Positions 10,717 to 21,152 are shown, counted from the stretch's first letter. The stretch is 64,000 nt of DNA from Myxococcus stipitatus (GCF_038561935.1 NZ_CP102770.1:1488001-1552000); one strand, 5' to 3'. Notes: generated from the sequence alone by a model not told the origin. Numbers and translations are program-made.

Positions 10717-12261
10717 ATGTTCCCCTCTCCGTCGCAGGTTCTCCGACAGCGTGAGGGATTGCTCGCCGACACGCCTTTTCCCCTGCTGCTGCACGCGCTG
10801 ATGGTGGAGGAGCGCACGTGCACGCTGGAGCTGAAGGTGCGTCAGCGCGAGAAGCGCATCCTCATCGAGGAAGGCTCTCCGGTGGCGTGCCAGTCCAACC
10901 TCCTGCACGAGACGCTGGGGAAGTTCCTGGTGGAGAAGGGGCGGCTGACGGAGGCGGACTACCAGAAGTCGCTGTCGGAGAGCGTGTCCTCGGGCATGCA
11001 GATGGGGAGCCTGCTGGTGCAGAAGGGGCTCATCAGCCCGTTCGATTTGTACAAGCAGCTCCAGGCGAACCTGGCGCACAAGCTCCTGGACTGCTTCCGC
11101 TGGGTGGACGCGAAGTACCGCCTCATCGCGGACGCGGAGACCCCCGACGCGAGCGTGCGCACCAACACCGCGCAGCTCATCCTGACGGGCGTGGAGGGCG
11201 TGATGCCCTTCGACGCGGTGGCCACCCACTTCACCTTCACGGATGAACGAAGGTTCGGACAGATGCCCGGCGTGGAGGCCGGACCCAAGCTGTCCTCCAA
11301 GGACGCGCGCCTGTTGCAGCAGCTGCGTCAGCGCCCCACGTTCAACGAGCTGCTGGAGCGCACGGGCTTCGACATGGAGACGGTGCTGCGGCGCCTGTAT
11401 GCGCTCTGCCTCCTGGGCGTGGCGGGCTTCGTCGAGGACGTGGACGCGCGGGCGGCGGAGGTGGCCGCGCGTGCCGTGGCTCCGGCGCCCGTGCCCGTCG
11501 TCGCGGAACCACCTCCCGCCGAGCCCCTCGCCGCCAAGGGCACCCCCTTCTCCGACGAGGACGTGAGCGCGCGAGATGCCCTCGTGTCGGCCTTCCTCGC
11601 GCACCGGAGCAAGGACCCGTTCGCGCTGCTGGAGGTCCCCGAGGACGTGCAGCCCCTGCCGCTGCGCCGGGCCTTCCTCGCGTGGGCGGAGCGCTTCTCG
11701 CCCCTGCGCTTCCAGACGCCCGAGCTCAAGGAGAAGGCGGAGGCGCTGCTGGCCGCCTACGCGAAGGCCTACGGGAGTCTGTCGGATGCGGAACAGAACG
11801 CCCTCTGGCGAAAGCGCCGCGCGGCGCACCGGGAGAAGGAGCGGGCCGCCACAGGACGCCCCAGCACCGCCGAGCAGTTCCGCATCCGGACAGACCTCCT
11901 GGACGCGACCACCCAGTTCGAGGAGGCCCGCCGCCGCCTGGCAGCCGGCAACCCCTCGGGCGCGTTCGAGTACCTCGAGTACGCCTGCGACATCGAGCCC
12001 AAGCCCCTGCATCACGCCTGGCGGGCCTGGGCGCGCTACCTCATGAAGCCCGAGGCGCACGGCCGCCTGGCCCTCCAGGAGCTCCAGGAGGTGGTCCGCC
12101 AGGAGCCCGCGCTCGAGGAGGGCTGGGCCTTCCTGGGCGAGGTGGCTCAAGGCGAGGGGCAGACGGGCCTGGCCGAGGAGTCCTTCCGCAAGGCCTTCAA
12201 GCTCAACCCCAAGAACCGCCGCTACGTGGACCTCATCCAGCAGCTCGCCCGGCGCCGCTGA
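10717..12261 (+). CDS. DUF4388 (PatA-like) protein with degenerate J-domain and TPR tail
   Basis: A 514-residue protein. Residues about 1-135 match the DUF4388/PatA N-terminal domain common in myxobacterial regulators (REKRILIEEGSPVACQSN, then HETLGKFLVEKGRLTEADY). The middle segment from about residue 300 (DPFALLEVPEDVQPLPLRRA) has the helix pattern of a DnaJ J-domain, but the HPD triad is replaced by SPL, so it should not stimulate Hsp70 in the usual way. The C-terminal 130 residues form TPR-like helices. This looks like an adaptor protein. The partner is unknown. Confidence 0.75.
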   Translation: MFPSPSQVLRQREGLLADTPFPLLLHALMVEERTCTLELKVRQREKRILIEEGSPVACQSNLLHETLGKFLVEKGRLTEADYQKSLSESVSSGMQMGSLLVQKGLISPFDLYKQLQANLAHKLLDCFRWVDAKYRLIADAETPDASVRTNTAQLILTGVEGVMPFDAVATHFTFTDERRFGQMPGVEAGPKLSSKDARLLQQLRQRPTFNELLERTGFDMETVLRRLYALCLLGVAGFVEDVDARAAEVAARAVAPAPVPVVAEPPPAEPLAAKGTPFSDEDVSARDALVSAFLAHRSKDPFALLEVPEDVQPLPLRRAFLAWAERFSPLRFQTPELKEKAEALLAAYAKAYGSLSDAEQNALWRKRRAAHREKERAATGRPSTAEQFRIRTDLLDATTQFEEARRRLAAGNPSGAFEYLEYACDIEPKPLHHAWRAWARYLMKPEAHGRLALQELQEVVRQEPALEEGWAFLGEVAQGEGQTGLAEESFRKAFKLNPKNRRYVDLIQQLARRR

Positions 12262-12538: not shown

Positions 12539-13330
12539 ATGAACTCCCGCACCACAGCGACCCAGTCAGGACAGGCCGCGGTGGAATCCGCCATTGTCCT
12601 GCCGCTCTTCGTCTTCCTCATCCTGGGCACGCTCCAGATTGGCCTGATGCACCAGGCGCGGCTGCTGACCAAGTACGCCGCCTACAAGGCCGTGCGAGCG
12701 GGCTCGCTCCACAACGCCAACGTGAAGACGATGGAGGCCGCGGCGCTCGCGGTGCTCCTGCCCATCCTGGGCACCCGGGCCTCCGGGGCGGGCGGCATCG
12801 AGTACGTCCGGCCGGTGGGCAGCGCCAGCGAGTTCGAGACCAAGTTCAACGAGCTGAAGTCCAACGAGATGCCCGGGGTGAACCTCAAGTACGCCGAGGT
12901 CACCGTCTGCGGCCCCACCCAGGAGGAGATTTCCGGGAGCAGTGGCGAGCTCGACTTCGACGACCCGAAGAACACGACGCCCAGCGGCTGGAAGGAGAAC
13001 CACAAGACCAAGCTCCGCATCCAGGTGACGCTCAACTACCGGCTCGTCATCCCCTTCGCGGACTGGGTCATCTACCAGGCGGCGCGCGGCCGCGAGATTC
13101 CGATGCAGCTGCGCATGGGCAAGATCAAGGCCCAGGAGCAGGCGAAGACGTCCGGCCGCCGCTTCGGTGGCGCCGCCACGGGCGAGGGCCCCTACGAGAG
13201 CGCCGCCGGCCAGGGCATCTACATCATGCCCATCCGCGCTACGTACACCATGCGGATGCAGTCCAACTTCTACCTGGGCGCCAACGCCCTTCCTGGGAGC
13301 AACGTATGCGTCTTCCCGTTCTCCTACTGA
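12539..13330 (+). CDS. TadE-like pseudopilin, cassette A
   Basis: A 263-residue protein with a type IV pilin-like N-terminus: SGQAAVES, with Gly11 as the -1 residue and Glu16 at +5, followed by a hydrophobic helix (residues about 17-38, LPLFVFLILG). This fits cleavage by a TadV-type prepilin peptidase. The ectodomain of about 220 residues is far larger than in classical TadE. The start at ATG 12539 follows a GAGG site; an upstream ATG at 12527 lacks one. The 3' end overlaps the next gene by 25 bp, as in cassette B. It likely initiates or caps a Tad-type pilus. No assembly genes are adjacent. Confidence 0.82.
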   Translation: MNSRTTATQSGQAAVESAIVLPLFVFLILGTLQIGLMHQARLLTKYAAYKAVRAGSLHNANVKTMEAAALAVLLPILGTRASGAGGIEYVRPVGSASEFETKFNELKSNEMPGVNLKYAEVTVCGPTQEEISGSSGELDFDDPKNTTPSGWKENHKTKLRIQVTLNYRLVIPFADWVIYQAARGREIPMQLRMGKIKAQEQAKTSGRRFGGAATGEGPYESAAGQGIYIMPIRATYTMRMQSNFYLGANALPGSNVCVFPFSY

Positions 13331-14874
13331 GCCGGACGCGGCGCCGCCGCACCCAGCGAGGGCAGGCCATCGTCCTCGGGTCGCTGTCCTTCCTGGTGCT
13401 CGCGTTGATGGTGACGCTGAGCTTCAACCTGAGCCACGCGCTCCGTCAGAAGATGACGCTGCAGCAGCACAGCGACACGCTGTCGTACTCCATGGCGGTC
13501 CTGGAGGCGCGCGCGCTCAACTACTACGCGGTCAGCAACCGGGCCATCGCCAGCTCCTACGTGGCGATGAACAGCCTGCACGCGTACATGTCCGCGGCCA
13601 GCATCACCGGCCAGATGATGCGCGCGTCCTCCAAGAACTTCCAGATGATCGCCATCCAGGAGTTCGCGCTGTGCGCCGCCTGCTATTTCATGTGCGACCA
13701 CTGCGAGCACTTCGCGGAGGCGCTCAAGATCAGCCAGGACTTCAACAAGGCCGGCAAGGACTACGACGACAAGGTCCAGGGCTTCGAGTCGAACTTCAAC
13801 TCGGCCATGGAGGGCCTGGACCTGATGGTGGACAACATCCACACGGCCCAGAAGGAGGTCCACGAGAAGACGCTCCAGGCCGTGAAGGATGGCCGCAGCC
13901 ACGGGCTGGCCCAGCTGAAGGCCTACACCGCGCCCAACGCCAGCGAGCTCGTGGCCGCCGTGGGCTCCATCAACGCCAACGAGTTCAACTGCGCGGTGGA
14001 CGGGATGGAGTGCCAGGGCAGCGTGGGCAACAGCTCGCCGGAGGCTCGCGCGAAGGTGATGACGGAGGTCGCCAACGCGACGCGCGCCAAGTGGGCGGCG
14101 AACCGCGAGACCGGCGGCTTCGGCTCCCCCACGAACCTTCCCAAGTACCTCAACTCCCAGTTCTTCCAGGAGCTGGATGACATCCCGGGGAACGAGGGGC
14201 AGCGCATGGTCAGCGGCGTGCGCGGCACGGCCAAGACGGTGAAGGAGGAAGGCGCCGTCTCCGGAGGACAGTCGTCCGACAACACGGGCGCCAAGGTGGC
14301 GGCGCAGGACGAGGGGCGCATCTTCCACCAGTGGAAGGACGGCGCGTTTCTGTCCCCGTTCAAGTCCCGGGTGTGGAGCGACGAGGGCGGAGGCGACCAC
14401 GTGGGCGACGGCGCGCACTCCGGCCAGCACCGCTTCGAGGGCGTCAACGCACGCGCGCTCACCAGCTGCGCGGGCTCCGGCAACTGCTTCATGAAGTTCC
14501 GCGCCAACCCGGACCCCAAGCGGGACTGGGGCCAGCCGCGCGTCTACAGCTACCTGTCGATGCCCTTCCGCGTGGGAGACACGAAGCGGGCGCCCTGGGA
14601 GCTCAACTCGTCGGCGCAGGTGCGCTTCACCCACGGCCAGCAGGGCGAGGGCAGCCTCACCGTCGCGGCGACGGAGGGCGCGGCCATGTCCAAGTCGCTC
14701 GTCTACTACCACCGCTTCGGCAACCTCGGCTGGAAGGAGGCCCCCAACCTCTTCGCGCCGTACTGGCGCGCCAAGCTGCATCCCTTCACGAAGGGAGATG
14801 CCCAGGAGGTGCTGGACGCCGCGGGCAACTCCGAGGGCTCCCAGATGTCTCAAGTGGAGGGGGTGGCGCTGTGA
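13306..14874 (+). CDS. TadG-like pilus protein, cassette A
   Basis: A 522-residue protein with the N-terminal Tad/TadG signature (QRGQAIVLGSLSFLVLALM, membrane helix about residues 22-42) and a large exported domain. Unlike its neighbours it lacks Glu at +5 after the Gly, so it probably stays uncleaved, as TadG proteins do. The ectodomain has several Cys pairs (CAACYFMCDHC near residue 124). The start overlaps the TadE-like gene by 25 bp; it ends in a GTGA overlap with the next gene. The N-terminal 100 codons are almost identical to the cassette B homologue, whereas the central ectodomain is strongly diverged. Confidence 0.8.
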   Translation: MRLPVLLLSRTRRRRTQRGQAIVLGSLSFLVLALMVTLSFNLSHALRQKMTLQQHSDTLSYSMAVLEARALNYYAVSNRAIASSYVAMNSLHAYMSAASITGQMMRASSKNFQMIAIQEFALCAACYFMCDHCEHFAEALKISQDFNKAGKDYDDKVQGFESNFNSAMEGLDLMVDNIHTAQKEVHEKTLQAVKDGRSHGLAQLKAYTAPNASELVAAVGSINANEFNCAVDGMECQGSVGNSSPEARAKVMTEVANATRAKWAANRETGGFGSPTNLPKYLNSQFFQELDDIPGNEGQRMVSGVRGTAKTVKEEGAVSGGQSSDNTGAKVAAQDEGRIFHQWKDGAFLSPFKSRVWSDEGGGDHVGDGAHSGQHRFEGVNARALTSCAGSGNCFMKFRANPDPKRDWGQPRVYSYLSMPFRVGDTKRAPWELNSSAQVRFTHGQQGEGSLTVAATEGAAMSKSLVYYHRFGNLGWKEAPNLFAPYWRAKLHPFTKGDAQEVLDAAGNSEGSQMSQVEGVAL

Positions 14875-15980
14875 GGACTTCCCGACATCGTTCCCAGCGC
14901 GGCGCCGCGGCGGTGGAGACGGCGCTGTGCATGCTCGTCATCATCCCCGTCTTCATGTACGCGCTCTTCCTGGACGACCTCCTCCGGCATGCCCTGGATG
15001 GTCAGGAGACCGCGCTCACCACCGCGTGGGACTTCGCCGTCCAGGACTACGCCAAGAAGGCGAGCGGTCAGTCCTTCAGCGGCTTCAGCGAGGCCCAGCA
15101 CTACGCCCGCCTCATGTACTGCGACCACGAGTCGGGACTGGACAGCTTCGGCCCTGGCAACGGGCCCGAGTGTGACAACGACGAGGGACACCACCAGGAG
15201 CTGTCCGCGCATGCCTGCTGGCTCAACCCGGGCGCGCAGCAGGTGCAGTGCACGCTGAACCAGGGCGACCCCAACGCGGGCGGAGGCGGTGGTCCCGTCG
15301 GCGCCTACAACGTGACGCTGCACCAGTCGTACATGGACCAGTTCAGCAAGGGCGGCATCATCCGCTGCTCGGCGCGGCTGGGTGTGCAGAACTACCTGCT
15401 GCCCAAGAGCTTCCTCCAGGACTTCAGCCAGGTGGGGCTCGCGCGGCAGACGATGCGCCGCGCGGACGGCGTCCACAACAACGCGCAGGGCAGCGGAGAT
15501 CTGCAGGACGACCCGCGCGGGCTCGAGGGCAATGTCTACCTGCTGCCCTGGGAGCGCATCGCCATCGTCACCGACACCTGGGCGCTGACCAAGGAGCAGA
15601 AGGTGGAGCGCGGCACGAAGGACGGCGACGAGGAGGGCCTCTACGTGCGCGTGGCCCAGGTCTACAAGAACCAGGACAACTCGGGCTACACCCAGATGAC
15701 CTCGCCCGCCGAGGCCTTCGTCAACGAGGCGACCCAGGAAGTGCTCAGCCCCGACGTCGCGCTGGACCAGATGGACCCGGGTGACGACCCGCGCGAGCCC
15801 AGCCTCTCCATCGTCCCGTTCCCGGAGAGCGGCGGGCCGAAGCAGGACGTGGAGCAGTACGGCAGCAGCGCCAGCTACTTCAACAGCGAGTGGCGTGACT
15901 GGGATGCCGACAACAACGAGGCCACCCACAACGCCCGGGGGAACAACTACCTGGGCTGCTCTTCTCCGGAGAGCTGCTGA
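14871..15980 (+). CDS. Second TadE-like pseudopilin, cassette A
   Basis: A 369-residue protein with a second pseudopilin N-terminus, RGAAAVETALC (Gly11 at -1, Glu16 at +5), and hydrophobic helix about residues 17-38. The ectodomain of about 330 residues has conserved cysteines and a stretch of Asp/Asn-rich sequence. It starts with GTG 14871, overlapping the TadG-like stop codon by 4 bp, and ends in TGATG with the next gene. Its pairing with the other pseudopilins and Flp suggests it is a minor pilin of a Tad-like fibre. Confidence 0.8.
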   Translation: MRTSRHRSQRGAAAVETALCMLVIIPVFMYALFLDDLLRHALDGQETALTTAWDFAVQDYAKKASGQSFSGFSEAQHYARLMYCDHESGLDSFGPGNGPECDNDEGHHQELSAHACWLNPGAQQVQCTLNQGDPNAGGGGGPVGAYNVTLHQSYMDQFSKGGIIRCSARLGVQNYLLPKSFLQDFSQVGLARQTMRRADGVHNNAQGSGDLQDDPRGLEGNVYLLPWERIAIVTDTWALTKEQKVERGTKDGDEEGLYVRVAQVYKNQDNSGYTQMTSPAEAFVNEATQEVLSPDVALDQMDPGDDPREPSLSIVPFPESGGPKQDVEQYGSSASYFNSEWRDWDADNNEATHNARGNNYLGCSSPESC

Positions 15981-16828
15981 TGCCTTCCTCGTCGAGCCTG
16001 GTCATTCGGGTCCCCGCGCTGCTGTTCTCCGTCGCGGTGGTGGGCGCGTTGATTGGCTTTACCTGGGAGGGGGCTGTCTATGGCAAGCGCGCGGTCTCGG
16101 AGGAGTGGTCTCCGCCGCCGTCGCTGGATGATGCGCCCGAGGCGAAGGCCGCGCGCACTCCCGAGGAGGACGCGGCGCTGAAGCGGGCGCTGGTGCACTT
16201 CCCCGCGTACCCCAGGGCCAGCCGCGCGGAGCTGCTCGCGGTGGACTACCTGGGGCCGGACGTGCCCATCGCGGTGGCGTGGTTCAGCACGCAGGACACG
16301 CCCGAGCAGGTGCTGTCGCACTACGAGAAGGTGCTCCTGGACAAGGGGCTGCCGGTGCTCGGGGAGCGCCATGGCGTCAACGGCGGGTGGGTGGGCTACT
16401 GGAGCCCGGCGAAGGAGGAGATGCGGCTCATCTCCGTGCTGGCGCAGGGCGGGGAGACGCTGGGCTTCGTGTCCGCGGGCCAGGTGGGGCCGCTGCTCAA
16501 GCGCGCGTCGAGCGTGCCCGCGTGGATGCCGCTGCCGGCGGAGCTGAGTGAGCCGGTGACGCTCTCCTTCAACATGGAGGGGGCCTCGCACCACGTGGTC
16601 GCCGGCAAGCTGCCGGAGGGGACTCCCACGGAAGTCGGAGCGCGCTACCGCGAGCTGCTCACCCAGAAGGGCTGGGAGGTGGGCGCGGTGGAGCAGGTGG
16701 ACGTGGGCGGAATCGCCTTCGAGGTGATTCGCGGCACCACGCTGGGGCGGGCCACGGTGCGTCCGCGCCTGCCCGAGCCGGGCGTCGAGGTTCAACTCTC
16801 ACTGCTCCAGCGAGGAGCCACGCCGTGA
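15980..16828 (+). CDS. Anchored protein unique to pilin cassette A, unknown function
   Basis: A 282-residue protein with one N-terminal membrane helix (residues about 8-28) and an exported region. Two similar segments can be seen, each with a Y..L...G(L/W) pattern (QVLSHYEKVLLDKGLPVL near 113-130 and VGARYRELLTQKGWEV near 216-231), suggesting a duplicated alpha/beta domain. It is translationally coupled on both sides (TGATG before, GTGA after). Cassette B has no counterpart. I recognise no family; a role in fibre assembly or surface retention is inference from position only. Confidence 0.7.
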   Translation: MPSSSSLVIRVPALLFSVAVVGALIGFTWEGAVYGKRAVSEEWSPPPSLDDAPEAKAARTPEEDAALKRALVHFPAYPRASRAELLAVDYLGPDVPIAVAWFSTQDTPEQVLSHYEKVLLDKGLPVLGERHGVNGGWVGYWSPAKEEMRLISVLAQGGETLGFVSAGQVGPLLKRASSVPAWMPLPAELSEPVTLSFNMEGASHHVVAGKLPEGTPTEVGARYRELLTQKGWEVGAVEQVDVGGIAFEVIRGTTLGRATVRPRLPEPGVEVQLSLLQRGATP

Positions 16829-17037
16829 AAGACGTGAAGGGTCAGGTCATGGCGAAGACTTCCAGCAACCTCCGAGGCAGCCGCGCGCGCGGGCAGTCGA
16901 TGGTGGAGTACGCCATCATCACCTCCGCGCTGATGGGCTTCACCGTGATGGGCTGGCCGTTCCTGGTGCAGTTGCTCAACGCGCTGCACAAGTACTTCAA
17001 CTCCATCTACTACGTGATTCAGTCTCCCATCCCGTAG
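16825..17037 (+). CDS. flp: Flp-family type IVb pilin, cassette A
   Basis: A small pilin of 70 residues from GTG 16825 (a second possible start is ATG 16849, 8 codons later, with a GAAGG site). The leader ends RARG (Gly23) and the mature chain begins QSMVEYA. Glu at +5 followed by Tyr is the hallmark of Flp/Tad pilins. The predicted mature pilin is 47 residues, mostly one hydrophobic helix plus an IYYVIQSPIP tail. It is 42/47 identical to the cassette B pilin. Tad pilins form thin adhesive fibres or contact-dependent killing machines. Confidence 0.88.
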   Translation: MKDVKGQVMAKTSSNLRGSRARGQSMVEYAIITSALMGFTVMGWPFLVQLLNALHKYFNSIYYVIQSPIP

Positions 17038-17104
17038 GCAGGGACCGTCAGGCGGGCTTCACTTCTGGCTCGGGCGGTCCGGCGGCGTGTGCTCGCGCTG
17101 GAGG

Positions 17105-17314
17105 ATGAGTGGGACGGCGTATGCGGATGACGCGAACCGGCTGCTGACGGGCGTGGACGCGGCCGTGAAGCGCGAGTTCGAGCGGGATGTCTTCGGCAAC
17201 AGCCTGGTGGAGCGCCTGGATGGGCGGAAGCGGACGCCCGAAGGCCCCGAGCGGGTCGTGACCTGGCTCGAGTCCCTCGGCGTTCGCATCACCGAAGTCT
17301 GCTCCCGAGGGTGA
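17105..17314 (+). CDS. Possible small protein between the pilin cassettes
   Basis: A 69-residue reading frame (MSGTAYADDANRLLTGVDAA start) with strong G/C preference at third codon positions, consistent with real coding. GGAGG abuts the ATG, which is poor spacing; a GTG at 17087 is an alternative start. It is hydrophilic, with no signal peptide or recognised family. Its stop codon runs into an 8-bp hairpin. It could be a regulator of the cassettes or a remnant of a third cassette. Confidence 0.4.
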   Translation: MSGTAYADDANRLLTGVDAAVKREFERDVFGNSLVERLDGRKRTPEGPERVVTWLESLGVRITEVCSRG

Positions 17315-17335
17315 TCGTCACGACGGTGTGACGAT
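17314..17335 (+). terminator. Perfect 8-bp hairpin after the small ORF
   Basis: ATCGTCAC / GTGACGAT around a 6-nt loop, directly after a stop codon and before the promoter region of pilin cassette B. There is no T-run after it, so it could be a Rho-aided terminator or an operator. Confidence 0.45.
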
Positions 17336-17487
17336 TCAGGCCCGCTGAGTGGTCTTACGTGTTTCCCGCCAGACATTGTTTCAGTGCGACGCGTCTCGTG
17401 GGTTCCCACCAGACCGTGCCTGTATTTCTTTCAGCGCCACCGTGAAGAATGTACAGAGCAGCCCTCTGTAATTCCTTACTCCGGGTG

Positions 17488-17503
17488 TGGCGTTGTTGCT
17501 GCT
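17488..17503 (+). promoter_or_regulatory. Sigma-54-like -24/-12 element upstream of pilin cassette B
   Basis: TGGCGTTGTTGCTGCT has GG and GC with the required 10-bp gap and matches TGGC and TGCT of the consensus. It lies about 90 bp before the TadE-like start in an AT-richer region (17315-17594) that otherwise has no gene. The pilA promoter of Myxococcus is sigma-54 dependent, which makes this plausible, but the match is imperfect. Confidence 0.35.
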
Positions 17504-17594
17504 TCTGTGTGGTGAAGGACAGTGCGGGCTTGGAGGGGAAGTAAGGGTGTTGTGGTTTTGTCGATCTCACTGTGTGTGTGGTAGTGATTGGCCC

Positions 17595-18395
17595 ATGCGA
17601 CGTCGCCTCTGCTTTGGATATGCAAGGGCACAGTCAGGACAAGCGGCGGTGGAGACCGCGGTTGTCCTGCCGCTCTTCGTGTTTCTCATTCTGGGCGTGC
17701 TTCAGCTGGGCCTGATGCACCAGGCGCGGCTGCTGACGAAGTACGCCGCATACAAAGCGGTCCGCACCGGTTCGCTTCGCAGCGCCAGCGTCTCGGAGAT
17801 GGAGCATGCCGCGGTCGCGGTGATGCTGCCGATGCTGGGCAAGCGCTCATCCGGCGCGGGGAGCATCGAGTACGTCCGTTCGGTCGGCAGCGGGCAGGAG
17901 TTCGCGACGAAGTGGAATGAGCTGAAGAACAACCAGATGGCGGAGACGGACCTGAAGAACGTGGAGGTCACCATCTGCGGACCGACGCAGGAAGACGTCG
18001 GGAGTGGTGGGGGGGAGCTCGACTTCGACGACCCGAGTGTCGCCACCTCGGGGGACTGGCGTCAGAGCATGCGCACGAAGCTGCGCGTCCAGGTGACGTT
18101 CAACTACCGGCTCGTCATCCCCTTCGCGGACTGGGTCATCTACCAGGCGGCGCGTGGCCGCGAGATTGGGATGCACCTGCGCATGGGGAAGGTGAAGGCG
18201 GCCGAGCAGGCCAAGGTGTCCAAGCGCAAGTTCGGAAGCAAGAACAAGGGGGAGAACCCCTACGAGAGCGCGGCGTCGAGGGGCATCTACATCGCGCCCA
18301 TCCGCGCCACGTACACCATGCGGATGCAGTCGAATCTGGTGGCCGACGACGACATCCCCGCGAGGAACGAATGCATCTTCCCGTTCGCCTACTGA
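17595..18395 (+). CDS. TadE-like pseudopilin, cassette B
   Basis: A 266-residue paralogue of the cassette A gene at 12539. The pseudopilin motif is SGQAAVET (Gly15 at -1, Glu20 at +5), followed by the same LPLFVFLILG helix. The region around NYRLVIPFADWVIYQAARGR is identical between copies, while the segment between about residues 110 and 155 is diverged. ATG 17595 gives a short charged leader. The gene overlaps the TadG-like gene by 25 bp, as in cassette A. Confidence 0.82.
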   Translation: MRRRLCFGYARAQSGQAAVETAVVLPLFVFLILGVLQLGLMHQARLLTKYAAYKAVRTGSLRSASVSEMEHAAVAVMLPMLGKRSSGAGSIEYVRSVGSGQEFATKWNELKNNQMAETDLKNVEVTICGPTQEDVGSGGGELDFDDPSVATSGDWRQSMRTKLRVQVTFNYRLVIPFADWVIYQAARGREIGMHLRMGKVKAAEQAKVSKRKFGSKNKGENPYESAASRGIYIAPIRATYTMRMQSNLVADDDIPARNECIFPFAY

Positions 18396-19915
18396 GCCGG
18401 ATGCGCCGCCGCACCCAGCGCGGGCAGGCCATCGTCCTGGGCTCGCTGTCCTTCCTGGTGCTCGCGTTGATGGTGACGCTGAGCTTCAACCTGAGCCACG
18501 CGCTGCGGCAGAAGATGTCGCTCCAGCAGCACAGCGACGCCATGGCGTACTCCATGGCGGTGCTGGAGGCGCGCGCGCTCAACTACTACGCGGTCAGCAA
18601 CCGGGCCATCGCCGGCTCCTACGTGGCGATGAACAGCCTGCACGCGTACATGGCCGCCGCGAGCGTCACGGGGGAGATGCTGAGGGCCGGCGAGAGTAAC
18701 TTCAACAAGATCGCCGCTGCTGAGCTGGCCAAGTGTCTTGCTTGCAGATGTAGCTGCTGCAAGCACGCGGCCGATGCCAAGAAGGTCGCGAACAAGTTCG
18801 GCAAGAAAGCAAGGGAGTATGACCGCGACGCGCGAGCCCTTGAAGGAGACTTCAGGACGGCCATGGAGGGCTTGGACCTCATGGTGGACAATCTTCACAA
18901 GTCCCAGGCGGAGGTCCACGCGAGGACCGCGCAGGCCGTGAAGGACGGCTCAAGCCACGGTCTGGCTCAGCTGAAGGAAGACACCGCACCCAAGGCGAGT
19001 GAGTTGAGCTCGGCTGTGGGGGCCCTCAATGAGAACGAGTTCAACTGCGCGGTGGATGGAAAGACATGTAAGGGCAGCGTGGAAAGTACCTCCAATGAGG
19101 CTCGCGCCCGCGTCATGACTGAGATTGGGAACGCGAGCCGCTCGGCATGGCCTTCGAACCGGACGGGGACGAAGCACCTCCACCCGGAGTTCCTCGACGA
19201 GTTCCGAAAGATTCCAGATGAGGGCGTCTATCGCATCTCGGGACACAAGGGCTCCGCCAAGACGGTGGTCGACAAAGAGGCGATCTACGAAGGAGGTCAG
19301 AGTGGTGGCAACGAGGGCACCACCGTGGCCGCAAGCGAAGAGGGCGTGCTTCATCAGGACCAGTGGGAGGACATCCTTCCCGGGATGTTTTCGTCGGACT
19401 ATGAATCCGCCATCTCGAGCGACTCAGGGGGGGGCGATCATGACGGTGATGGAGACCAACACCGAGGCTCCCACCAATTCGAGGGCACCAACGCCCGGGC
19501 GCTCGACGGCTGCGCGAGTGGAGGCAACTGCTTCATGAAGTACCGCGCGAACCCCGACCCCGAGCGGGACTGGGGCCAGCCGCGCGTCTACAGCTACTAC
19601 ACGATGCAGTTGAGCGTGGGGAACGCCCAGCAGGCGCCATGGGAGCTCAACAACTCCAGGAGCGTGGAGTTCCAGCACGGCGCCCAGGGCTCCGGGAAGC
19701 TGACCGTGGCCGCGGGTGAGGGCATGAGCCTGTCCAAGGCCCTCGTCTACTACCACCGCTTCGGCTCGGGCGGCTGGAAGGAGCCACCCAACCTCTTCGC
19801 TCCCTTCTGGCGCGCGAAGCTGCATCCCTTCAAGCCGGGCGAGGCCGCCAGGGTGCTCCAAGAGGTAGGCAACTCCGACGCCGTCCCCATCGCCGAGACG
19901 GAGGTGCCGCTGTGA
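18371..19915 (+). CDS. TadG-like pilus protein, cassette B
   Basis: A 514-residue paralogue of the gene at 13306. The N-terminus QRGQAIVLGSLSFLVLALM is identical to copy A. The first 100 codons are near-identical at DNA level, then the ectodomain diverges, including a different Cys cluster (CLACRCSCCKHA near residue 121). The last 130 residues are again similar (NCFMKYRANPDP, YYHRFG..GWKE). It ends in a GTGA overlap with the next gene. Probably a single-pass envelope protein of the pilus machine. Confidence 0.8.
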   Translation: MHLPVRLLSRMRRRTQRGQAIVLGSLSFLVLALMVTLSFNLSHALRQKMSLQQHSDAMAYSMAVLEARALNYYAVSNRAIAGSYVAMNSLHAYMAAASVTGEMLRAGESNFNKIAAAELAKCLACRCSCCKHAADAKKVANKFGKKAREYDRDARALEGDFRTAMEGLDLMVDNLHKSQAEVHARTAQAVKDGSSHGLAQLKEDTAPKASELSSAVGALNENEFNCAVDGKTCKGSVESTSNEARARVMTEIGNASRSAWPSNRTGTKHLHPEFLDEFRKIPDEGVYRISGHKGSAKTVVDKEAIYEGGQSGGNEGTTVAASEEGVLHQDQWEDILPGMFSSDYESAISSDSGGGDHDGDGDQHRGSHQFEGTNARALDGCASGGNCFMKYRANPDPERDWGQPRVYSYYTMQLSVGNAQQAPWELNNSRSVEFQHGAQGSGKLTVAAGEGMSLSKALVYYHRFGSGGWKEPPNLFAPFWRAKLHPFKPGEAARVLQEVGNSDAVPIAETEVPL

Positions 19916-20976
19916 GCTCTCTTCCTCCCAGAAGCAGGAGACGCGCTGCCCGAGGTGCCGCCGCCGTGGAGACGGCGCTGTGCATGCTCGTCATCATCCC
20001 CGTCTTCATGTACGCCATCTTCCTCGACGACCTCTTGCGACACGCCCTGGACGCGCAGGAGACAGCGGTCTCCACCATCTGGGACTACACCGTCGCGGAC
20101 TATGCGAAGACGCCGGAAGGAGAGTCCTTCGCGGGCTTCGGTCAAATCCAAGGCGTGGCCCGGTTGACGTACTGCGACCACGAGTCAGGTCTGGACAGCT
20201 ACCAGACCGTGCCTCCCGAGTGCGACAACGACCAGAGCCACCACCAGGAGCTGGTGGCGCACGCCTGCTGGCTGAACCCGGGCGCGCAGCAGGTCCAGTG
20301 CACACTGAACCAGCAGGCCGTGGGCGCCTATGGCGTCACGCTGCACGCCGCGTACATGAACCAGTTCAACCGGGGCGGGCTCATCCGCTGCTCGGCACGC
20401 AACGGTGTGCAGAACTATCTGCTGCCCAAGACGCTCTTCTCCGAGTTCAGCCAGGTCGACCTGGCGAAGGAGACGAAGTCAGGCAATGTCCACACCAACG
20501 CCCAGGCGGAGCGAGACGTGGAGAAGGACACCTATCTGCTGCCCTGGGAGCGCATCGCCCTGGTGACGGACACATGGGCGCTGACCCGGGAGCAGAGCTT
20601 CGAGCCCGGCCAGTCGAACAATGACCCGGAGCGCGTCTATGCACGCGTGTCCCAGCTCTACACGAACGGAGAGAACCGGGGCTACACGGACATGAAGCCG
20701 GCCGCCGAGGCGCTCGTCTCCGCCGCCATCGAGGACAAGCTGCTCAGCGAGGACATGCGGTTGGATTCGCAGGGCCCCGGAGACGACCCGCGCAAGCTCA
20801 GCATGTCCATCAAGCCCCAGAACGGCGCGCCCACCCAGGACATCAAGCAGGGCGGCGACAGCGCCTCCTACTTCAACAACGAGTGGCAGGACTGGGACCA
20901 GGACAACAACAAGGCGACCTACGACGCGCGCGCCGAGTACTACATGGGCTGCTCGAGGCCCGGGTGCAAGAAATGA
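19912..20976 (+). CDS. Second TadE-like pseudopilin, cassette B
   Basis: A 354-residue paralogue of the gene at 14871 with the N-terminus RGAAAVETALC (Gly15 at -1, Glu20 at +5). It starts with GTG 19912, overlapping the TadG-like stop, and ends in an ATGA overlap with the Flp gene. In cassette A one extra gene is inserted at exactly this junction. The ectodomain keeps the aligned Cys positions but has deletions relative to copy A, for example at the Gly-rich loop near residue 140. Confidence 0.8.
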   Translation: MSSLPPRSRRRAARGAAAVETALCMLVIIPVFMYAIFLDDLLRHALDAQETAVSTIWDYTVADYAKTPEGESFAGFGQIQGVARLTYCDHESGLDSYQTVPPECDNDQSHHQELVAHACWLNPGAQQVQCTLNQQAVGAYGVTLHAAYMNQFNRGGLIRCSARNGVQNYLLPKTLFSEFSQVDLAKETKSGNVHTNAQAERDVEKDTYLLPWERIALVTDTWALTREQSFEPGQSNNDPERVYARVSQLYTNGENRGYTDMKPAAEALVSAAIEDKLLSEDMRLDSQGPGDDPRKLSMSIKPQNGAPTQDIKQGGDSASYFNNEWQDWDQDNNKATYDARAEYYMGCSRPGCKK

Positions 20977-21152
20977 CCAGGTCCCTTCGCCGCACCCGTG
21001 CGCGAGGCCAGTCGCTGGTGGAGTACGCCGTCATCACGGCCGCGCTCATGGGCTTCACCGTGATGGGCTGGCCGTTCCTGGTGCAGCTGCTCAACGCGCT
21101 CCAGAAGTACTTCGGCTCCATCTACTACGTCATCCAGTCCCCCATCCCCTGA
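20973..21152 (+). CDS. flp: Flp-family type IVb pilin, cassette B
   Basis: A 59-residue pilin. The leader is only 12 residues (ends RARG, Gly12); the mature chain is QSLVEYAVIT onward with Glu+5 and Tyr+6, 47 residues. It differs from the cassette A pilin at five mature positions, all conservative or in the short polar turn (H/Q, N/G). The start ATG 20973 overlaps the preceding stop (ATGA). It is convergent with the binding-protein gene at 21180. Confidence 0.88.
   Translation: MTRSLRRTRARGQSLVEYAVITAALMGFTVMGWPFLVQLLNALQKYFGSIYYVIQSPIP

Follow-up and report, generated by a model that had tools for sequence, protein, structure and literature searches.

The Kil predation pilus of Myxococcus xanthus, a Tad-type pilus that serves to kill prey on contact, has four interchangeable tips, and both their arrangement and, from M. 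xanthus genetics, the role of tips and adapters in prey killing have been published (Herrou 2025, PMC12075869). The tip3 cluster consists of KilL3, KilM3, KilN3 and KilO; KilO, a Flp protein of 59 amino acids, is a low-level adapter required for Tip3 only, and the fibre is made of a separate major pilin, KilP (PMC12075869). That work raised the questions of how the pilus selects a tip and which part recognises prey. Here we describe a 64,000-nucleotide stretch (the window; G000:C1:1488001-1552000) of the 10.17-Mb genome of Myxococcus stipitatus, in which two minor-pilin cassettes, A and B, stand in succession. Both cassettes are orthologues of M. xanthus tip3. New here are the tandem itself, which is old, asymmetric and found in one Myxococcus clade, and a protein, X, that is the one-to-one companion of Kil tips, copy B excepted.

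Two tip3 cassettes and a motor at other loci

Of 145 genomes surveyed from the order, 86 gave a match to a KilN profile, and in the fetched neighbourhoods of 40 loci the usual gene order was KilM-KilN-KilL-X-Flp, with a small Cys-rich protein before Flp in some genera. M. xanthus AM003 has exactly four KilM-KilN-KilL loci, only one of which, outside kil cluster II, has a Flp gene (L060). Its flanking genes are the same as those of the window. It holds a single cassette, in which KilM, KilN and KilL keep their order and are 53-61% identical to their orthologues, and its Flp, 59 amino acids long, is 82% identical to KilO-A. Because this AM003 counterpart has the same flanks and a 59-residue Flp, because the other two loci away from the motor have no Flp, and because KilO, also of 59 residues, belongs to tip3, both cassettes are identified as tip3 by synteny, size and elimination among the four AM003 tip loci.

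An earlier sequence-only reading of the window had proposed that the cassettes may be tips of a Kil-type machine encoded away from its motor, and had held that the lack of any Tad motor in the genome would refute this. The tip3 orthology bears the proposal out, as does the motor, which was looked for and is present in the same genome. Kil cluster I, at 4.43 Mb, encodes Peptidase_A24, Secretin and FHA+T2SSE proteins, all above Pfam cut-offs; kil cluster II, at 6.50 Mb, encodes two T2SSF platform proteins, RcpC/CpaB, KilK and the tip4 genes (T2SSF and RcpC above Pfam cut-offs). The window is not a self-contained Tad locus: the absence of an ATPase was confirmed for T2SSE (0 matches within the window), and the motor genes are those at 4.43 and 6.50 Mb. 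A second proposal, that the tandem encodes two fibre types, was not borne out. By homology the Flp proteins are KilO adapters and the fibre is a separate KilP (PMC12075869), for which the genome's only Pfam Flp_Fap match, at 7.13 Mb and below the curated cut-off, is a candidate. The two fibre types are therefore to be replaced by two tips that would sit on a shared KilP fibre.

Further tip sets at 0.47, 0.91, 1.02 and 7.69 Mb bring the genome's number, with tip4 and the two of the window, to seven. Counterparts of the other three M. xanthus tip loci are those at 0.47, 0.91 and 6.50 Mb. The sets at 1.02 Mb (L024:8485-13219) and 7.69 Mb (L028:6945-11850) are extra KilM-KilN-KilL-X-Flp sets beyond the four M. 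xanthus tips; one of them may correspond to the "fifth type of Tip" reported in Herrou 2025, and the Flp of the set at 7.69 Mb was called short (48 amino acids). Two SctV/FlhA-family genes in the genome fit the type III secretion system (T3SS*) partner of the Kil pilus.

Prepilin sites of the form G/xxxxE were predicted in KilM, KilL and Flp of both copies, in agreement with the six of eight core proteins counted earlier. Only KilN, in both copies, departs from this pattern (G/QAIVL), a trait shared by almost every KilN orthologue: Leu replaces Glu5 in 47 of 48, with the Gly kept. GspK, the tip-most minor pseudopilin of type II secretion, likewise lacks Glu5. By analogy with GspK, the absence of Glu5 fits a position of KilN at the far end of the tip, which agrees with published models. 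The predicted structure of KilN3-A (predicted local distance difference test score, pLDDT, 78.6) combines a very long helix at the N-terminus with one helical and one beta part. Compared with solved structures, it gave nothing above common helical matches (best Z 7.4, no Foldseek E < 0.001), and the same absence of a structural match was reported for the KilN4 domain (PMC12075869).

The genes are listed in Table 1. Their coordinates and the identities between A and B paralogues (KilM 68%, KilN 65%, KilL 65%, Flp 81%; far above chance) confirm two gene sets in succession, and the overlaps that had been described for both sets (25 bp, GTGA, then start/stop) were found as claimed. A common gene order, also claimed, holds for KilM-KilN-KilL and Flp; between KilL and Flp, copy A has an extra gene of 282 codons, X, that is absent from copy B. 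X had been overlooked, and the sets differ by this one gene. The large ectodomains said to exceed those of standard Tad systems are not a distinguishing feature, as the TadG proteins of other Tad pili likewise reach a large size and end in a modular domain (PMC12075869), and the terms "orphan" and "giant" were overstated. In the suggested hidden Markov model comparison with the TadE family, KilM3-A and KilM3-B both scored above the Pfam cut-off; NCBIfam gave no match for any protein. KilO-A could alternatively start at a GTG at 16825, giving 70 amino acids. An open reading frame between the cassettes (17105-17314, 69 amino acids) was rejected as a gene, being not conserved in other tandem loci. 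Directly upstream of the cassettes, at 10717-12261, lies a gene for a DUF4388 + TPR protein whose position is conserved in Myxococcus and Corallococcus-like genomes.

Table 1. Genes of the two tip3 cassettes, in window coordinates.
Protein	Position	Strand	Description	Basis or remark
KilM3-A	12539..13330	+	TadE-like minor pilin, 263 aa, G/QAAVE	Pfam TadE 43.8 bits, above gathering cut-off; orthologues at ~40 loci
KilN3-A	13306..14874	+	TadG-like large minor pilin, 522 aa, G/QAIVL without Glu5, predicted distal tip end	Profile search, tree, structure model
KilL3-A	14871..15980	+	Second TadE/F-like minor pilin, 369 aa, G/AAAVE	Synteny and orthology
X3	15980..16828	+	Tip-linked accessory protein, 282 aa, N-terminal transmembrane helix and two bbabbbb domains (predicted)	
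KilO-A	16849..17037	+	Flp adapter pilin, 62 aa from ATG, G/QSMVE	Homology to M. xanthus KilO
KilM3-B	17595..18395	+	TadE-like minor pilin, 266 aa	Pfam TadE 46.2 bits, above gathering cut-off
KilN3-B	18371..19915	+	TadG-like large minor pilin, 514 aa, G/QAIVL	Faster evolving; distal part with excess synonymous divergence
KilL3-B	19912..20976	+	Second minor pilin, 354 aa, G/AAAVE	
KilO-B	20973..21152	+	Flp adapter pilin, 59 aa, G/QSLVE	

An old and asymmetric tandem

The tip3 tandem is present in nine Myxococcus genomes, including M. eversor, M. qinghaiensis and M. llanfairpwll... All four pilin genes of copy B are intact in each of the nine, and X is absent from copy B in each. In the KilN tree, A and B each formed one clade with 100/100 support, and the single copies of the M. 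dinghuensis group joined A. When three genes were joined, a tree uniting A and B without the M. dinghuensis group was rejected (approximately unbiased, AU, test, p = 0.00024). The single-copy M. dinghuensis group lies with A to the exclusion of B, yet B belongs to the Myxococcus clade as the neighbour of A (96/94 and 99/98 support), and the flanking genes place the M. dinghuensis group as sister of the tandem clade. From the AU rejection and the placement of the flanking genes, either the duplication would predate the M. dinghuensis split, with B lost there, or B would have come by transfer.

Within-clade length over the same nine genomes was 1.22 for B and 0.57 for A, a 2.2-fold difference. 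Judged from codon comparisons, both copies are under purifying selection; the ratio of nonsynonymous to synonymous rates (dN/dS) was about 0.02-0.43 for the three large pilin genes of both copies, Flp being left aside because its length does not allow a stable estimate.

The distal part of KilN-B was compared with the remainder of copy B at fourfold-degenerate sites with conserved amino acids. Against the nearest relative, 47 of 108 distal sites were divergent, compared to 35 of 252 in the remainder (p = 3e-9). Further pairs gave 41/112 versus 32/244 (p = 9e-7), 47/109 versus 40/240 (p = 3e-7) and 37/124 versus 33/200 (p = 0.006); the pairs within the window's clade are not independent of each other. 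The same test in copy A reached p = 0.025 at most, and the excess against the nearest relative was not seen there. Nucleotide identity drops to 73-77% in the distal part of KilN-B, compared to 88-99% in its flanks. The simplest reading of these sequences is that, in the window's clade, recombination has put divergent alleles in place of the distal part of KilN-B.

The KilN N-terminus was also examined for gene conversion between the two copies, which is not claimed: over the first 62 columns synonymous divergence was 0.16 within genomes versus 0.27 between clades, and KilM and KilL had nothing similar. Two side observations concern other tip3 loci. One genome of the genus (G120) has a second, divergent tip3-like set elsewhere in the chromosome, without the usual flanks and without X (L066). 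In two Corallococcus-like genomes KilM was called at about 540 amino acids, twice the usual length, from a fusion or a wrong start (L072:2232-3860 and L073:2148-3767).

X, a companion of Kil tips

The X profile was started from tip3 X proteins and widened stepwise; it was built on tip-linked proteins, but the search itself was blind to neighbourhood. At every other tip locus, both in this genome and in M. xanthus, it picked up a single protein, set clearly apart from the one that came next. Genome-wide, X counts were six here (seven tips, copy B having none), four in M. xanthus AM003 and four and five in two relatives; the X count equals the count of tip loci, copy B excepted. Across 60 genomes, 83 of 91 X genes had a TadE gene in the same orientation 1.1-6.6 kb upstream, and the other eight were all in multi-contig assemblies. 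TadE was found with no X in 11 genomes, nine of them from a single family (f3). X3 itself has a predicted transmembrane helix and no prepilin site, and is 29-97% identical among 35 tip3 orthologues across the order. We found no description of X in the main texts of both Kil papers, which do not name MXAN_4656 or MXAN_4657; by our count 15 pilins and seven machine proteins make up all 22 genes of the 2025 profile set.

No Pfam family or PDB chain was matched by the X sequence. In the X3 model (mean pLDDT 69.7) the transmembrane helix is followed by two bbabbbb domains. Domain 2 superposes on PA1624 (Z 10.6), DcrB (Z 10.0; 87 residues, 2.1 A), EagT6 (Z 8.5) and BamC (Z 8.2). In the model the elements of domain 1 follow the same order, but this domain is barely covered by the structure matches; as sequence repeats the two domains gave a 34-column match only (probability 44%), so that the repeat is taken from the model. 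None of 17 X members matched the Eag family (DUF1795) at E 0.1. In type VI secretion, Eag proteins are described as chaperones for the transmembrane segments of effectors (PMC7773334).

Because of its linkage to tips, its predicted DcrB/Eag/BamC-like fold and the chaperone role of Eag, we tentatively propose that X is a dedicated chaperone or loader of the tip. A wider picture is possible, in which the X family would comprise periplasmic proteins of two domains, one for each tip, which hold either the minor pilins or an effector and deliver them to the pilus as Eag does for the type VI spike. In one Myxococcus clade the duplicated tip3 would then share one X, and recombination would diversify the end that faces the prey.

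In tip3 loci of several genera, Pyxidicoccus, Corallococcus and Archangium (for example L064:7441-7659, L069:7063-7335 and L073:7267-7548), X and Flp are separated by a small secreted protein that carries repeated CX3C motifs. This protein is absent from the window's clade; a similar one lies near L027:13038-13328.

Proposed mechanism, alternatives and known systems

It is likely, in our judgement, that the locus is a tandem tip3 pair of the Kil pilus which works as follows. In each cassette a KilM-KilN-KilL heterotrimer would cap the pilus, KilO would join the cap to a fibre made of KilP, the major pilin that both cassettes share, and the Kil motor (4.43 and 6.50 Mb) would polymerise the fibre. 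KilN, having no Glu5, would be the distal end, and its variable part would meet the prey and decide which contacts trigger pilus extension and killing. After the duplication copy A would have stayed conservative and retained X, while copy B would have lost X, evolved about twice as fast and, in the window's clade, had its distal KilN replaced by divergent alleles, giving a second tip3 specificity. It is plausible that A and B differ in prey specificity. Each tip would have its own X as a dedicated chaperone or loader, either periplasmic or anchored in the membrane, with copy B using the X of copy A.

Several points weigh against this proposal. The tip3 assignment was made by synteny, size and elimination. 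In one of the five pairs (L044-L045) the distal part of KilN-B had no excess of synonymous divergence (p = 0.38), so that allele replacement does not hold throughout. In M. xanthus, Tip3 ranks with the weaker tips on the prey tested (PMC12075869), and the benefit of a second copy is thus not obvious. The role in prey killing is carried over from M. xanthus genetics (PMC12075869). Finally, the X model is of modest confidence, and a shared fold does not prove function.

The cassettes might instead encode two independent adhesive or surface-sensing Tad fibres, unrelated to predation, each with its own Flp as main subunit. Each Flp does have a good prepilin site, and Flp is the main pilin of classical Tad systems; but M. 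xanthus KilO is an adapter and KilP the fibre, the two Flp proteins are 81% identical, the cassettes have no motor of their own and the genome's only Flp_Fap match is elsewhere, which makes independent fibres very improbable. Copy B could also be a decaying spare with no function of its own, relaxed constraint accounting for its twofold faster evolution and its loss of X. We regard this as improbable, for its four pilin genes are intact in all nine genomes, its processing sites are kept and dN/dS of its large pilin genes is well below 1. The KilN-B excess, moreover, is also present at synonymous sites and thus does not come from relaxed protein constraint.

The origin of copy B is a separate matter. 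That it is a tip3 cassette transferred from another myxobacterium, which landed beside the resident one, would explain the rejected A+B clade and the missing X in nine of nine genomes. Even so, B falls inside the Myxococcus clade beside A, no outside donor was found, and a duplication that preceded the M. dinghuensis split, followed by disappearance of B from that group, gives the same tree; we consider transfer rather unlikely. As for X, it is possible that the protein is a structural part of the tip or a delivered effector rather than a chaperone. It is encoded together with each tip and is probably translationally coupled to KilL through the shared base 15980, and its predicted fold has START-like matches that could bind a ligand. 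On the other hand, tip3 X proteins have a predicted transmembrane helix and no prepilin site, resemble the holder proteins DcrB, BamC and Eag, and are kept across the order.

With one slowly and one rapidly evolving copy, the natural tip3 pair offers a ready-made experiment on the role of the distal part of KilN. The X family supplies a concrete candidate for tip assembly or loading and, being present at every M. xanthus tip locus, is testable in the model strain.

Compared with known systems, the cassettes share with classical Tad TadE, TadF and TadG the pilin N-termini, the TadE Pfam match and the large TadG-like protein, whereas standard tad loci keep motor and tips together. In the predicted fold of its domain 2, X is like the DcrB/PsbP/Eag (DUF1795)/BamC group, but it is a two-domain, tip-linked protein without a sequence match to that group. 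Tip1, Tip2 and Tip4 (KilLMN1, 2 and 4) have the same KilM-KilN-KilL order with an X gene downstream; their distal KilN parts differ, and among them a Flp (KilK) is found only in the cluster of tip4, kil cluster II. The M. xanthus tip3 cluster, whose locus also holds an X gene that the main text of PMC12075869 does not name, is alike in gene order, flanking genes (in AM003), 59-residue Flp, large KilN and a motor encoded elsewhere, and is unlike in that it has one copy where the window has two diverged copies.

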